From: Paenibacillus albicereus
GTDB taxonomy: Bacteria > Bacillota > Bacilli > Paenibacillales > Paenibacillaceae
Direction of reading: 5' to 3'
Assembly (NCBI RefSeq): GCF_012676905.1
Contig: NZ_CP051428.1
Coordinates: forward strand, 287,501-351,500
DNA: 64,000 nt
Shown: positions 35,459 to 43,335 of the stretch, one piece after another
How the letters are laid out: every line of letters begins with the position of its first letter
How positions within the stretch are numbered: the stretch's first letter is position 1
Notes under the pieces: model-generated
Seen by the model: only the letters and a program-made list of their open reading frames with translations
What the model was told of the DNA's origin: nothing
Databases searched by the model: none
Position numbers and translations under genes: made by a program

Positions 35459-36769
<1,311 letters not shown>

Positions 36770-36778
36770 GTTATGCCC

Positions 36779-36814
36779 GATCCTGCCCGCCATCCTGCGG
36801 GCAGGATCTTTTTA
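36779..36814 (+). terminator. Terminator of glycolytic operon
   Basis: GATCCTGCCCGC-CATCCT-GCGGGCAGGATC is a 12-base perfect stem followed by five T. Confidence 0.94.
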
Positions 36815-36936
36815 TTAGGTTGTGTTAGGCCAAAATCACAAACAAACGGCGCAAAAACCGCCCTAGCACCGAAACGGATGAAACCGCTATACTTGACCCA
36901 AGCTAGACGAATCTATCGAACAGGCGGTGGGAAGCG

Positions 36937-37701
36937 ATGGCAAAACCTCAAGTCGGACTGCAGCTGTACACGCTGCGCGACCAGACGGAAAAGGACTTTC
37001 TCGGCACGATCCGCAAGGTAGCCGACATGGGCTATGAATACGTCGAATTCGCGGGCTACTTCAACACGAGTCCGGAGGATCTGAACCAGGTGCTGAAGGA
37101 GACGGGCATTACGGCCGTATCCGCGCATGTCGGCCTGAACTTCAACGATCCGGACAAGATGGTGTCGGACCTGGCGGAGCAGATTGAATACGCAAAGGCG
37201 ATCGGCCTCAAGTACCTCGTCACGCCGTGGGCTCCGCTGCCGGAAAATCCGCAGATGGAAGACGTGGACAGCCTCGCCTCGACGCTGGAGAAGGCGGGCC
37301 GCCAGGTGACGGAGGCCGGGCTGGTCTACGGCTACCACAACCATGACTTCGAGTTCAAGAAAGTAGACGGAACGCCGGTCATCGACCTGCTGCTGGAGCG
37401 GATTCCCGCCGATCTGATGATGATGGAATTCGACCTCGGCTGGGTCCATATGGGCGGCCAATCGCCGGTCGAGTATGTGAGGCGCTATGCGGGACGCACG
37501 CCGATCGCGCATCTGAAGGACTTTGGAATCGGACGCCGCGACACCGAGGTCGGCAGCGGCTCGGTCGAGTTCGATCCCGTATTCGACATCGCCGAGGAAG
37601 CCGGCATCGAGTACTTCATCGTGGAGCAGGAAGAGTTCGCCGGCTCCTCGATCGAGAGCGCCAAGCTGAGCCTGGATTACCTGCGCGGCAAAGGCTACTA
37701 G
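36937..37701 (+). CDS. Sugar phosphate isomerase/epimerase-like TIM-barrel protein
   Basis: A 254-residue protein of the xylose isomerase-like AP-endonuclease-2 TIM-barrel superfamily. The opening [35 protein letters not shown], the metal-site region [24 protein letters not shown] and HLKDFG are characteristic. Such proteins isomerise or epimerise keto-sugars and inositol derivatives; the substrate here is not readable. No signal peptide is seen. GGTGGGAAG lies before the ATG. It is a single-gene unit between eno and secG with its own terminator. Confidence 0.85.
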
Positions 37702-37762
37702 CTCAAAAGCCCCGGCGGGCGGCCGGTTCCGTCGCCTTGGCCCCGAGCCAGGGCCGGAACAT

Positions 37763-37801
37763 AGCCCGTTCGGACCTTGGCGGTCCGGACGGGCTTTTTC
37801 G
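37763..37801 (+). terminator. Terminator after TIM-barrel isomerase gene
   Basis: AGCCCGT-TCGGACC-TTGGC-GGTCCGG-ACGGGCT forms a long stem followed by five T. Confidence 0.92.
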
Positions 37802-37816
37802 GCGTCAAGGAGGCGC

Positions 37817-37846
37817 TTGTTTCCTCAGGCCAGGCTATGGTACAAT
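37817..37846 (+). promoter_or_regulatory. Candidate promoter of secG
   Basis: TTGTTT and TACAAT are 18 bases apart, about 130 bases before the secG ATG. Confidence 0.5.
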
Positions 37847-37976
37847 AAAATCGCTGTTTATGATTTGGTTTTGCCCATGCAAGCCGCTTGCTGGCCGCAG
37901 GAGACGGCCTGCATGTGCAAAACTCATAGCGGCAGGCAGCCGGGAGGCTGTACGAAGGCTGGGAGGTAACGAACGC

Positions 37977-38207
37977 ATGGATATTTTCCTGAAGATTCTG
38001 CTCGTGATTTTTTCCCTCGGACTGATTGCGGTAGTTCTGCTGCAAAAGGGTAAGAGCGCTGGCCTCTCCGGAGCGATTTCCGGCGGAGCGGAGCATCTGT
38101 TCGGCAAGCAGAAGGCACGCGGCCTGGACCTGTTCCTGCAGCGGCTGACCATCGGGCTCGCCGCTGGATTCTTCATCGTCGCGCTGCTGGTCGCCTACCT
38201 GAAATAG
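37977..38207 (+). CDS. secG: Preprotein translocase subunit SecG
   Basis: A 76-residue membrane protein of the SecYEG channel. Two transmembrane helices ([20 protein letters not shown] and [19 protein letters not shown]) flank the conserved loop [20 protein letters not shown]. The start at ATG 37977 has GGGAGGT at good spacing; longer in-frame extensions upstream are non-coding. The order secG-rnr-smpB-ssrA is the standard Bacillales arrangement. Confidence 0.96.
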
Positions 38208-38228
38208 CACGGAATACAGCCTTGAGGA

Positions 38229-38252
38229 AGCGGGGGAATCCCCGCTTTTTCT
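38229..38252 (+). terminator. Terminator of secG
   Basis: AGCGGGG-GAAT-CCCCGCT is followed by five T. Confidence 0.85.
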
Positions 38253-38274
38253 TTATATCCTGGAAGGCCAGCGG

Positions 38275-38301
38275 TTGATGACGCCCGAATTCGTGTATAC
38301 T
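38275..38301 (+). promoter_or_regulatory. Candidate promoter of rnr
   Basis: TTGATG and TATACT are 15 bases apart (a GGTTGA at 17 bases is the alternative), about 75 bases before rnr. Confidence 0.5.
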
Positions 38302-38375
38302 ATCAAGGAGATAGAAGTGGCTGGATCTGCCAGGATAGCGGACGGGTCCTTACGGCACGAGGTGAGAAGGAGAAC

Positions 38376-41300
38376 ATGACCATCGAACATCAAACATTGC
38401 TCGACTTGATGAACCAGCCGGCGTACAAGCCGATGACGTATCAAGAACTGGAACGGCAGCTCGGCATCGACAACGCTTCCGATTTCAAGGCGTTCCTGAA
38501 GCTGCTCAATGAGCTGGAGGAGCAAGGCTCGATCCTCCGCAACGATGCGGGCGCCTACGGGCTGCCGCAGCACATGGACCTGCTCAAGGGCCGGCTGCAA
38601 GTGCATGCCAAGGGATTCGCGTTCCTGCTGCCTGAGGACAAGACCCATCCCGACGTCTATATCGGGGCCAACGATCTGAACACCGGCATGAACGGAGATA
38701 CCGTGCTTGTCCGCGTCCAGACTCGCGGACCCGGGGGCGGACGGATGGAAGGCGAGGTCGTCCGGATCGCCGAGAGGGCGGTCAAGCAGTTCGTCGGCAC
38801 GTTCGAGAGCCATGAGAGCTTCGGCTTCGTGTCTCCGGACGACAAGCGGCTCGGACGCGACATCTTCATCCCGCAAGGCTCGTTCGGCGGAGCGGTGACG
38901 GGCATGAAGGTCGTCGTCGACATCACGCACTACCCGCAAGGCCGCGCCGCCGCTCAGGGCGAGGTCGTCGAGGTGCTCGGGCACAAGAACGATCCCGGCG
39001 TCGACATCCTGTCCATCATCCGCAAGCATCAGCTGCCGGAGGGCTTCCCCGACGACGTGCTGGCCGAGGCCGAAGCGGCGCCCGACTCCATCACGGAGGA
39101 GGAGATCGTCAGCCAAGGCCGGCGGGACCTGCGCGGCAAGACGATCGTCACGATCGACGGCGAGGACGCCAAGGACCTCGACGACGCGGTCAACATCGAG
39201 CGGCTGCCCAACGGCAACTACCTGCTCGGCGTCCATATCGCCGACGTCAGCTACTACGTCCGCGAGCGCAGCGCGCTCGACCAGGAAGCATACCGCCGCG
39301 GCACGAGCGTCTATTTGACCGACCGCGTCATTCCGATGCTTCCGCATCGGCTGTCCAACGGCATCTGCTCGCTGCATCCCCAGGTCGACCGCCTGACGAT
39401 GAGCTGCGAGATGGAGTTCGACGCGTCGACGCTGAAGCGCGTGCGCCACGACATCTTCACGAGCGTCATCCGCTCCAAGGAGCGCATGTCGTATACGAAC
39501 GTGCGCAAGATCCTCACTCCGGTGGAGCCGGAGGACGAGGCCGCGGAGCCTGTTCTGGCGCAAGAGCATCAGGAGCCGTTGAAAGCGCCTCAGACGGACT
39601 TCGCGTCCGACGAGGCGGAGCTCGATCCGAGCCTGAGCGCGCCGGCGGAGAAGCTGCCGCCGGGCGGGATGGGCACGATCGTAGCCGACGACGACGGCGG
39701 CGTGCCTCGCCATGCGGACGATGAAGACGAGGAGCCGATTGCCGGCGCCTCGACGGACGAGGACGAGGATGAGGACGTGCGCCAGCCGGAGCGGTTGAGC
39801 CGGCCGACAGACATGGGCCTGATCGTTCCCGGCGGCGATGCCGGCAGCCCGGGCGAGGACACCGACGAGGAGTTCGCGTCGGATGACGAGGCCGGCGCAT
39901 CCGGCGTCCAGTCGGACGACGGCGAGCCGTATCCGCTGCGCGGCGCCGGCGCCGGCGGGCCGACCCGCTCGCGCGAATCGGACAACCCGTGGATGGCTCA
40001 GGAAGCCCAGCCGGTCATCAACAACAAGCCGATCCGCAAGGCAGAAAAGGCGCGTACCCGGCAGGAGGACTTCGACCAGCTGGACGCCTTTGCCGGCGCG
40101 CAGGCTGCCGAATCCCAGCCGACGGAGACGGAGGCCGAGCGCGAAGCGCGGCTCGCCGCCGAGCGCCAGGATCGCGCCGAGCGGCGCGCGGAGCGCGAGC
40201 AGCTGCTGGAGCGCTATGCCGAGCTCGTGCCGACCTTCCAGCTGATGGAGGAGCTCGCGATGAAGCTCCGCCGCCAGCGGATGAAGCGCGGCGCGATCGA
40301 CTTCGACTTCTCGGAGTCCAAGATCCTCGTGGACGAGGAAGGCAAGCCGACCGACATCATCAAGCGCGAGCGCACGATTGCCGAGATGGTGATCGAGGAG
40401 TTCATGCTGGCGGCCAACGAGACGGTGTCCGAGCACTTCTTCTGGCTCAAGGTGCCGTTCCTCTACCGGGTGCACGAGAATCCGGAGGGCGAGAAGCTGA
40501 TGACGTTCATCCAGATCGCCTCCAACTTCGGCTACTCGGTCCGCGGCAAGAACAACACGGTCCATCCCAAGGCGCTGCAGTCGCTGCTCGAGGAGATCAA
40601 GGGCACCAAGGAAGAAACGGTGCTCTCCACGATGATGCTGCGCTCGATGAAGCAGGCGCGCTACGACGCCGAGAGCCTCGGCCACTACGGCCTGGCGGCG
40701 GAGTACTACAGCCACTTCACGTCGCCGATCCGGCGCTATCCCGACCTGGTCATCCACCGGGTCATCCGCGAGGTGCTGGAGAGCGGCGGCACGCTGTCCG
40801 AAGCCCGCATCGAGGCGCTTGCCGCCCGCATGCCGGACATCGCCCAGCAGTCGTCGGAGCGTGAGCGCGTGGCCGTCGACGCCGAGCGGGACACGGACCA
40901 GCTCAAGAAATGCGAGTTTATGCTCGATAAAGTAGGAGAAGAGTTCACGGGCCTCATCAGCAGCGTGACCGGCTTCGGAATTTTCGTGGAGCTGCCGAAC
41001 ACGGTAGAAGGTCTCATCAGGCTGAGCAGCCTGAACGACGACTACTACCACTTTGACGATCAGCAGATGATCCTCATCGGTGAGCGCACCTCCAACATGT
41101 ATCGCATCGGAGACGAGGTGAAAGTGCGCGTGGAGCGGGTAGATATGGATGACCATCAGATTGACTTCGCGATGGTCGAAGGAGGCTCGCGCGGAGCCGC
41201 TCAAGGAAGCGGAGCGCGCGGGAAGGGCCGCGGAGCCAAAGGGCGCCGCGGCAAGGAAGCCGCCGGCCGTGCAGGCGGCCAGCAAGGCGGCGCAGCCGCC

Positions 41301-42107
41301 GGGCGCGCCGGCGCAGGCGGCCGATCCGCCGCGCAGGGCGGCGGATCGACGGCAGCGCCGGCGAGCGGCGCGCGTCCGAGCGCGCAGCGCGGACGCGGAG
41401 CCGGCGAAGCCGGCGGCCGCGGCCCGGGCGGAGCCGGGCGCGGTCCTCGCGGGGGCGGCGGCGGCAGAGGCCGCCGCGACAGCGGGTTCGGCCCCAACGG
41501 CTGGCGGGGCAGCATGCCGGAGGACATCCCGAACGTGCGGGATGACAACCCTTGGAGCGTGCGCGAGGGCGGCAAGACCGAGAGCACGAAGCGCACGGAC
41601 ATGTGGGGCTTGCCGGTGCCGCCGGCCAGCCTCGGCAATCGCGGCGGGCGCCCGGGCGCAGGCCCGTCGGCCGACCGCAGCCGCGGACGCGGGCCGTCTC
41701 CGGACGGCGCGCCGCGCGGCGGCCGTCCCAAGGGCGGACGCGGTCCGACGATCAGCGGCGCTTCCGCAGCGGATGGCCAGCAGGCGTCGGCAGGCGTGCT
41801 GCAGGAGCAGGTCTCCGGCGGAGCCAAGGCGAAGCGCAAGCGCCGCAAGGGCAGCAGCACGGCGCCGTCCATCCGCGAAGTGACGCGGGCGGACATCGCC
41901 GATCTGTTCCGGGACATGGATCCGGAATCGCGCGCTTCCGTCACGCCGGACGCGCCTGCAGCCGCCGAGGGCGGCTCCAAGCGCAGCCGTTCGCGCCGCA
42001 AGAAGAACAAGGGCGCCGCAGGCACGCCGCCGGTGAGCGGCGGCGATGCGGGAGTCAATCCGAATTCCGCGCCTCAGGGCGGCTCCGGTCCGGATTCGGC
42101 GGAGTAG
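38376..42107 (+). CDS. rnr: Ribonuclease R, enlarged by an acidic insert and a Gly/Arg-rich tail
   Basis: A 1243-residue 3'-5' exoribonuclease; family members are usually about 700-820. In order: an N-terminal winged helix (residues 1-60), cold-shock domains (about 65-225), the RNB domain with catalytic Asp264, Asp267, Asp269 and Asp270 in GEDAKDLDDAV, an insert, the rest of RNB (LRRQRMKRGAIDFDF; HFTSPIRRYPDLVIHR), and an S1 domain ending near 936. The insert (about 380-608) is rich in Asp, Glu, Ala, Ser and Pro, and splits RNB between SYTNVRKIL and LLERYAELVPTF, which adjoin in ordinary RNase R. The tail (about 937-1243) is Gly/Arg/Ala-rich, with RGG-like runs and a basic end. The frame is open throughout and all catalytic motifs are present, so it looks functional. 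With SmpB and tmRNA it clears faulty mRNA. Confidence 0.93.
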   Translation: MTIEHQTLLDLMNQPAYKPMTYQELERQLGIDNASDFKAFLKLLNELEEQGSILRNDAGAYGLPQHMDLLKGRLQVHAKGFAFLLPEDKTHPDVYIGANDLNTGMNGDTVLVRVQTRGPGGGRMEGEVVRIAERAVKQFVGTFESHESFGFVSPDDKRLGRDIFIPQGSFGGAVTGMKVVVDITHYPQGRAAAQGEVVEVLGHKNDPGVDILSIIRKHQLPEGFPDDVLAEAEAAPDSITEEEIVSQGRRDLRGKTIVTIDGEDAKDLDDAVNIERLPNGNYLLGVHIADVSYYVRERSALDQEAYRRGTSVYLTDRVIPMLPHRLSNGICSLHPQVDRLTMSCEMEFDASTLKRVRHDIFTSVIRSKERMSYTNVRKILTPVEPEDEAAEPVLAQEHQEPLKAPQTDFASDEAELDPSLSAPAEKLPPGGMGTIVADDDGGVPRHADDEDEEPIAGASTDEDEDEDVRQPERLSRPTDMGLIVPGGDAGSPGEDTDEEFASDDEAGASGVQSDDGEPYPLRGAGAGGPTRSRESDNPWMAQEAQPVINNKPIRKAEKARTRQEDFDQLDAFAGAQAAESQPTETEAEREARLAAERQDRAERRAEREQLLERYAELVPTFQLMEELAMKLRRQRMKRGAIDFDFSESKILVDEEGKPTDIIKRERTIAEMVIEEFMLAANETVSEHFFWLKVPFLYRVHENPEGEKLMTFIQIASNFGYSVRGKNNTVHPKALQSLLEEIKGTKEETVLSTMMLRSMKQARYDAESLGHYGLAAEYYSHFTSPIRRYPDLVIHRVIREVLESGGTLSEARIEALAARMPDIAQQSSERERVAVDAERDTDQLKKCEFMLDKVGEEFTGLISSVTGFGIFVELPNTVEGLIRLSSLNDDYYHFDDQQMILIGERTSNMYRIGDEVKVRVERVDMDDHQIDFAMVEGGSRGAAQGSGARGKGRGAKGRRGKEAAGRAGGQQGGAAAGRAGAGGRSAAQGGGSTAAPASGARPSAQRGRGAGEAGGRGPGGAGRGPRGGGGGRGRRDSGFGPNGWRGSMPEDIPNVRDDNPWSVREGGKTESTKRTDMWGLPVPPASLGNRGGRPGAGPSADRSRGRGPSPDGAPRGGRPKGGRGPTISGASAADGQQASAGVLQEQVSGGAKAKRKRRKGSSTAPSIREVTRADIADLFRDMDPESRASVTPDAPAAAEGGSKRSRSRRKKNKGAAGTPPVSGGDAGVNPNSAPQGGSGPDSAE

Positions 42108-42185
42108 CCTAATCAGCGCAGCAGACATGGACAGGGATTGCCGATCCGGCAATCCCTGTTTTCGACGAAAGGAGGAGATCGAGGT

Positions 42186-42671
42186 ATGGCCAAGAACAAA
42201 GATCAATCGCAAAAGCCGCTTGCCCAGAACAAGAAGGCCTCGCATGACTACTTCATCGAAGAGACGTATGAAGCCGGCATGGTGCTCATGGGCACGGAGA
42301 TCAAGTCGTTGCGTACCGGCCGCGCCAATCTGAACGATGCCTTTGCCACTGTCCGTAACGGGGAGATATTTCTGAACAACCTGCATATCAGCCCGTTCGA
42401 GCAGGGCAACCGGCATAACCCGACCGATCCGACGCGGGCCCGCAAGCTGCTGCTGCACAAGGCGCAGATCGCCAAGCTGTTCGGGCAGTCCAAGCAGGAA
42501 GGCTACTCGATCGTGCCGCTCAAGATTTACGTGCGCAACGGCTACGCCAAGATCCTGATCGGACTCGGCAAGGGCAAGAAGCAGTACGACAAGCGCGAGT
42601 CCGCCGCCAAGCGGGATGCCCAGCGCGACATCCAGCGGGCGCTCCGCGAGAAGCAAAAGGTGGCTCGCTAG
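42186..42671 (+). CDS. smpB: SsrA-binding protein SmpB
   Basis: A 161-residue RNA-binding protein that brings tmRNA to stalled ribosomes. The OB-fold core has [47 protein letters not shown] and [13 protein letters not shown], and the basic C-terminal tail ([30 protein letters not shown]) enters the decoding channel. The ATG at 42186 follows AAAGGAGGAG at good spacing; an upstream in-frame ATG at 42138 has no such site. ssrA lies about 300 bases downstream. Confidence 0.97.
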
Positions 42672-42974
42672 CGGGGGCGCCAAGCCGTAGAGCAAGCAAG
42701 AGGATCGGCATCGGAGAGCGGGCGGTTGATGGGCCGGCTTGCGTGCAGAAGCGTACTTTCGGATGTCATCAAGCGTTGCTAGCTCATCCCGCTTGGTCTG
42801 GCTTCCAGCGATTCGCTTCGCTTTTTCCGATTCACCTGTGGTATACTAGGGGTATCAAGTTACGTTGGCTTTGAATGTGCAATGCTGTGCGATGATCTCG
42901 CTCAGTCCTTGCGCTTCGGACCGCCGCGCGGCTGCTGCAGCTTAGGTGCATGCGCCGGCAGGACGGATCTGTCC
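42672..42974. other. smpB-ssrA intergenic region
   Basis: No protein gene is visible. It holds a TATACT box at 42842-42847, with only a weak -35 candidate, that probably drives ssrA with a 5' leader of about 120 bases to be removed by RNase P. Confidence 0.55.
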
Positions 42975-43335
42975 GGGGGCGTTTATGGATTCGACGGGGG
43001 TAGTTCGAGCATGGGTTGCGGGTAGTGGGGACGCGTCCGCTTTATCAACGCTAAAGCCTATTAAATGGCAACCAACGTACAACTTTAGCAGCAGCCTAAG
43101 AAACTGTATGCTAAGCTCCTCTCCAGCATCGCCTATGTGCCGGATGTAGGGGCTCACCCTTAGTAGGCTACGCTGTTCGGTCTCCGCCTGGGGTCGGCAG
43201 AAGAAGACAATCAGGCTGACCTGTAGAATAGCCGGTTACGGGGCGCTTCTGCAGGTGACATCAAATCCGTGACTACACCCGTAGATGCCTATGTGCCGTT
43301 GCCTTCGGACAGGGGTTCAAATCCCCTCGCCTCCA
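42975..43335 (+). ncRNA. ssrA: Transfer-messenger RNA (tmRNA)
   Basis: The tRNA-like ends are clear: GGGGGCG at the 5' end pairs with CGCCTCC near the 3' end, TTTATGGATTCGACGGGG follows the 5' acceptor arm, and GGGTTCAAATCCC is the T-arm. The discriminator A is followed by TTA, so CCA is not encoded, unlike the tRNAs in this window. A tag frame GGC AAC CAA CGT ACA ACT TTA GCA GCA GCC TAA (43067-43099) gives GNQRTTLAAA after the initial Ala carried by the RNA; GGC as resume codon is inferred from the Bacillus tag. Tagged proteins are degraded by Clp proteases; clpP is at 28287. Confidence 0.95.

Follow-up and report, generated by a model that had tools for sequence, protein, structure and literature searches.

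The ribonuclease R (RNase R) gene of Paenibacillus albicereus encodes, inside the catalytic RNB domain of the enzyme, an acidic insert of 229 residues that is present in an open frame, has homologues throughout a small clade, carries a duplicated motif and other short segments that are more constrained than the spacers around them, and leaves the sequence of the enzyme core intact. Because several short sequences inside it are kept nearly unchanged, the arm is probably a docking or regulatory element; the reading we favor, with moderate confidence, is a lineage-specific, disordered docking arm with short linear motifs for one or more protein partners. RNase R is usually viewed as a stand-alone enzyme that varies at its ends. 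While RNase R itself is known, an internal appendage limited to a small clade is new, and literature searches within an open-access library yielded no account of such an RNase R arm.

All positions below refer to the window, the whole stretch of 64,000 nucleotides that was analysed. The gene, its catalytic cluster and the insert are located as follows.

38376 to 42107, + strand: rnr, RNase R of 1243 residues, with HTH, CSD1, CSD2, RNB and S1 domains and a basic G/R-rich tail; the insert lies within RNB.
39150 to 39191, + strand: catalytic aspartate cluster TIDGEDAKDLDDAV, residues 259-272, intact.
39513 to 40199, + strand: acidic insert, residues 380-608, 229 residues, interrupting RNB at a loop.

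The armed protein is an RNase R by all features tested. Its reading frame is complete, with zero internal stops over 1243 residues; the RNase R model TIGR02063 matches it in two stretches (E 4.5e-262, 871.5 bits against a cut-off of 597.85), and Pfam recognizes OB_RNB, CSD2, RNB and S1, with the RNB match broken into two. The domain order HTH-CSD1-CSD2-RNB-S1, the basic tail and the active-site aspartates are those of RNase R, and the alignment with Bacillus subtilis RNase R (8cdu), in sequence as well as in fold, starts at the N-terminal HTH region. The 3'-5' exonuclease activity on structured RNA that is typical of RNase R is putative for the armed protein. The gene order at 35474-43335 is eno, a sugar-phosphate isomerase-like gene, a secG-like gene, rnr, an smpB-like gene and ssrA (42975-43335, tmRNA tag GNQRTTLAAA), where all names other than rnr and ssrA come from reading the translations. 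An open frame of 1480 residues, antisense to rnr (38253-42695, - strand), is most likely a mechanical by-product of G+C-rich DNA.

The insert, with a G+C content of 72%, is rich in P, E, D, S and T and contains 61 D/E and 22 K/R residues, for a net charge of -39. The initial annotation had described an insertion of about 229 residues in the RNB domain with the reading frame and catalytic residues kept on both sides, and this is borne out: query residues 7-382 and 607-959 align with residues 9-380 and 382-735 of 8cdu, where the two stretches abut, the family models are split, and in the open frame both TIDGEDAKDLDDAV and, on the other side of the insert, HFTSPIRRYPDL (residues 780-791) are intact. 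The linker from VRKIL to ERYA measures 8-14 residues in 48 relatives of the order and, by an equal rule, 231 in P. albicereus; since the insert took the place of this ancestral linker, the net gain is about 220 residues. There were zero family matches to the insert in Pfam (up to E 10) and NCBIfam (up to E 1), which together with its predicted disorder rules out an intein or other known inserted domain. Spread via mobile DNA was likewise rejected, as a plasmid search came back empty and the GC3 of the insert (0.86) is so close to that of the core (0.88-0.90) that there is no sign of foreign DNA.

A homologous in-frame insert of 224-245 residues is found in seven of the eight genomes of the GTDB genus, namely P. 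albicereus and six other species assemblies; P. pasadenensis DSM 19293, P. pasadenensis MER37, P. herberti R33 and P. humicus NBRC 102415 are among the carriers. The prospect that the insert might exist in one assembly only, raised in the initial annotation, is contradicted by these open-frame homologues, and the six other assemblies rule out an assembly artefact. A profile of the insert searched against 394 family genomes found the seven carriers and one weak match (G329), a polyketide synthase that we read as chance, and the homologous insert is absent from the 386 other family genomes in this search. A tree built from the RNase R core unites the carriers in one clade (100/100), which is small and recent, comprising seven species. 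The eighth genus member (G001) has a shorter insert of about 74-79 residues, and the linker is thus enlarged in all eight. The whole G001 insert aligns with those of P. albicereus (G000), G005 and G006 better than all 3000 shuffles; without the helix, it is not convincingly above them. In the core tree G001 groups weakly with other sequences, and a tree that places it as sister to the carriers is neither supported nor rejected (p-AU 0.33). Insertions of about 43 residues (G037) and 30 residues (G045) at the identical site elsewhere in the order indicate that the loop tolerates length change. Across the phylum, no large insert occurs at this site among the single-span RNase R matches listed, a set that leaves weaker and split matches outside.

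From N to C terminus, the insert consists of an acidic spacer, a first motif copy, a second acidic spacer, a second motif copy, an acidic and G/A-rich spacer, an NPW module, the EDFDQLDAFA segment and a charged helix that joins the RNB helix. The individual elements are:

39645 to 39707, + strand: repeat motif copy 1, AEKLPPGGMGTIVADDDGGVP, residues 424-444.
39708 to 39779, + strand: acidic spacer between the copies, residues 445-468, charge retained and sequence changed.
39786 to 39851, + strand: repeat motif copy 2, PERLSRPTDMGLIVPGGDAGSP, residues 471-492.
39981 to 40028, + strand: NPW module, DNPWMAQEAQPVINNK, residues 536-551, NPW[ML].
40065 to 40094, + strand: EDFDQLDAFA module, residues 564-573, EDF[DE]QLDAFA.
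40131 to 40232, + strand: charged helix, or stalk, about residues 586-613 in the AlphaFold2 model, conserved in all seven species and continuing as RNB helix ERYAELVP.

The acidic spacers agree with the earlier description of the insert as low-complexity, but the conserved motifs that alternate with them make it a mosaic. The two copies are diverged duplicates with the consensus ..P..MG[TL]I....D[AG]G..P, whose copy-against-copy alignment score was reached by two of 5000 shuffles in P. albicereus and by none of 5000 in G005, G006 and G002. They are spaced 45-57 residues apart, and each of the seven species has 10-13 acidic residues in the middle spacer even as the spacer sequence diverges. In the P. 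albicereus genome, a profile of the motif matches only the insert (6.7e-17 and 8.5e-17; the next match is at 0.83), and in relatives, too, the matches above chance are confined to the insert; occurrence in other proteins of the genome was rejected, as nothing exceeded chance. Since the motifs are absent from the other proteins searched, the partner cannot be inferred by sharing, and none of the motifs has been paired with a known ligand motif. The insert motif was also compared by eye with the SGIFxG of other RNase R tails; the context differs, and homology is not claimed.

Selection on the insert was analysed by segment, using Nei-Gojobori dN/dS ratios in seven species pairs, of which several deep ones give rough ratios because synonymous sites are near saturation. 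Taken whole, the insert has a ratio of 0.12-0.18 in every one of the seven pairs but the deepest (G000/G002), which gives 0.41; the catalytic core has 0.02-0.09 in all but that deepest pair. The motifs overall have ratios of about 0.02-0.13 in most comparisons. Repeat 1, for instance, gives 0.027 in both G000/G004 and G000/G006 and, where computable, 0.027-0.10 in all pairs except G000/G002 (0.42), and the segment from NPW to DAFA gives 0.024 in G000/G004, 0.046 in G000/G006 and 0.024-0.12 in the computable pairs except G000/G002 (0.21). For acidic spacer 446-468, five of six computable pairs have ratios of 0.33-1.3, whereas G002/G003, a very close pair, has 0. Because choosing motifs by their conservation is circular, blocks were also set from five other species and then tested on the held-out pair G000/G004, in which codon changes number 13 synonymous and four non-synonymous in the blocks against 27 and 32 in the spacers (Fisher p=0.030). 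The sequence comparisons show constraint concentrated in the motifs and fast evolution in the spacers, the held-out support being only p=0.03; none of the seven species has lost a motif. Separately, over 38376-42107 the synonymous divergence of the RNBb-S1 segment (residues 609-934) is lower than that of the first 379 rnr residues in every pair tested (0.68 and 1.95, respectively, in G000/G006), for which recombination or codon constraint are possible explanations.

An AlphaFold2 model built on a 12-sequence alignment (mean pLDDT 69, pTM 0.64) places residues 385-584 below 50, with block means of 22-31, residues 586-613 in a helix and most of the core at 70-90. In Foldseek, the modeled core matches 8cdu with a TM score of 0.83 by target at 44% identity, and matches other RNase R structures as well. 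The charge-hydropathy relation also classes the insert as disordered. The insert is therefore predicted to be a disordered arm on a helical stalk over an intact RNase R fold.

Disorder, duplicated private motifs and charge-conserved spacers together have what we take to be the look of a docking arm. In such a mechanism, the arm would be carried by a lengthened helix of the enzyme's catalytic domain, and its motif array (the duplicated P..MG[TL]I....D[AG]G..P, NPW[ML] and EDF[DE]QLDAFA) would bind one or more proteins, by which the exonuclease may be tethered to, or controlled by, some other part of the RNA-metabolic machinery. Between the motifs, the acidic spacers would act as separators and keep the arm extended and away from RNA; their conserved acidity possibly also repels RNA or binds the basic tail. 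The arm presumably matters in the cell and leaves catalysis unblocked. The suggestion in the initial annotation of a tolerated, perhaps functional, partner-binding surface insertion gains support from purifying selection on the motifs, their duplication and the disorder outside an intact fold. Against docking, the clade is small and recent, the held-out test reaches no better than p=0.03, the motif dN/dS rises to 0.2-0.4 in the deepest pair, G000/G002, and part of the constraint could be structural, residing in the helix, and not due to binding.

Docking fits better than pure charge mimicry, because the strongest constraint falls on the uncharged or hydrophobic MG[TL]I, NPW and EDFDQLDAFA. RNA mimicry, also put forward in the initial annotation, in which the acidic arm would lie over the positive CSD/S1 funnel and compete with RNA in an autoinhibitory manner, is unlikely but has points in its favor: every one of the seven species has a net charge between -29 and -45, with acidity kept despite sequence change, the acidic tails of Hfq work in this way (PMC5606850), and mobile autoinhibitory elements occur in the eukaryotic RNB relatives Rrp44 and Ssd1 (PMC8934651). 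Mimicry, however, needs none of the uncharged motifs that are most constrained, and ahead of the stalk the AlphaFold2 model shows no part of the arm as confidently ordered. In addition, the known RNB autoinhibitors are a CSD1 insertion and an RNB loop (PMC8934651), which may lie at other sites than the arm.

A different use of the same charge would be an intramolecular clamp, with the arm binding the basic tail of its own chain and gating how that tail reaches RNA, SmpB or the ribosome. The tail features concerned are:

41178 to 42107, + strand: disordered G/R-rich tail, 309 residues, net charge +28.
41541 to 41573, + strand: NPW motif of the tail.
41589 to 41624, + strand: DMWGLP motif of the tail.

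The opposite charges of arm (-39) and tail (+28), the NPW motif common to both and the smpB-like gene and ssrA adjoining rnr are consistent with a clamp, as is the E. coli enzyme, in which the K/R-rich tail folds back onto the RNB domain, and tail and S1 jointly bind SmpB (PMC12320835). We nevertheless consider it quite unlikely, given that many arm-less relatives have tails equally long and basic and that charge covariation between insert and tail is not seen across the order (Spearman rho 0.008); the lengths do correlate (rho 0.42), in an analysis that counts related species as independent.

The tails have conserved motifs of their own. D[MI]WGLP, mostly after a basic residue, occurs in 19 of 55 RNase R tails and in none of 200 shuffling rounds, and is replaced by DFWGF in G039, G041, G048 and G056. 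Of 21 genomes, 11 have an exact DNA match to DMWGLP, each at a single place and mostly at the RNase R gene; the match in G002 is on a different contig from its truncated rnr. Two further motifs recur in the tails of relatives such as G001, G017 and G029: an AFVRK-like motif in 16 of 55 tails (shuffled mean 0.2) and SG[IV]F.G in 13 of 55 (shuffled mean 0.03), the latter present in G001 and missing from the insert carriers.

Neutral, repeat-driven growth of the loop in a GC-rich genome, harmless and tolerated, would account for the fast evolution of part of the arm, its G+C content and the small insertions accepted at the site in G037 and G045; it is very unlikely in view of motif dN/dS values near those of the catalytic core, the low ratio of the insert in six of seven pairs and the retention of the motifs in all seven species. 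A PEST-like degradation signal read by a protease and setting the RNase R level is highly improbable, for although the arm has the composition and E. coli RNase R stability is controlled via tmRNA-SmpB and HslUV or Lon (PMC12320835), no degron was found, the constraint lies in specific motifs and composition alone is weak evidence.

Of the known systems, B. subtilis RNase R (8cdu, PMC10901742) shares its domain order with the armed protein, as well as the active-site motif and the basic tail, but is without the arm, its aligned stretches abutting at residues 380/382. In state I of its complex with the 30S subunit, RNB makes contact only via tri-helix 477-534 (PMC10901742), which places the arm outside the 30S interface by sequence position, although a chain of 200 residues could reach it. 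Extra segments of the RNB-family proteins Rrp44, Dis3L2 and Ssd1 regulate or block the RNA channel (PMC8934651); these lie in CSD1, S1 or an RNB loop that may be at another site, and no sequence relation to the arm was found. The C-terminal domain of the RNA-binding protein Hfq is acidic and disordered and in this resembles the arm (net -39, predicted disorder), but it is terminal and mimics nucleic acid, and the abstract on it describes no comparable motif array (PMC5606850). The closest logical parallel is offered by the C-terminal microdomains of RNase E, which are disordered and fast-evolving and contain conserved short partner-binding segments (PMC4435900). The arm likewise combines predicted disorder with short conserved segments. 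The RNase E region, however, is C-terminal, belongs to another family and has known partners (PMC4435900), whereas the arm lies within the catalytic domain and has putative partners. Because no RNase E homology was found, the significant family and structure matches being to RNB, cold-shock/OB and S1 proteins, the armed RNase R is not classed as a member of the RNase E-type scaffolds. We tentatively propose, with somewhat less confidence than in docking itself, that RNase R gained, once and recently, an in-domain scaffold arm for a private RNA-decay complex or switch. If so, it would follow a logic like that of the RNase E scaffold with a separate origin, and would make it possible to trace how a housekeeping exonuclease recently acquired a new surface for interaction or control, its arm-less relatives serving as natural controls.
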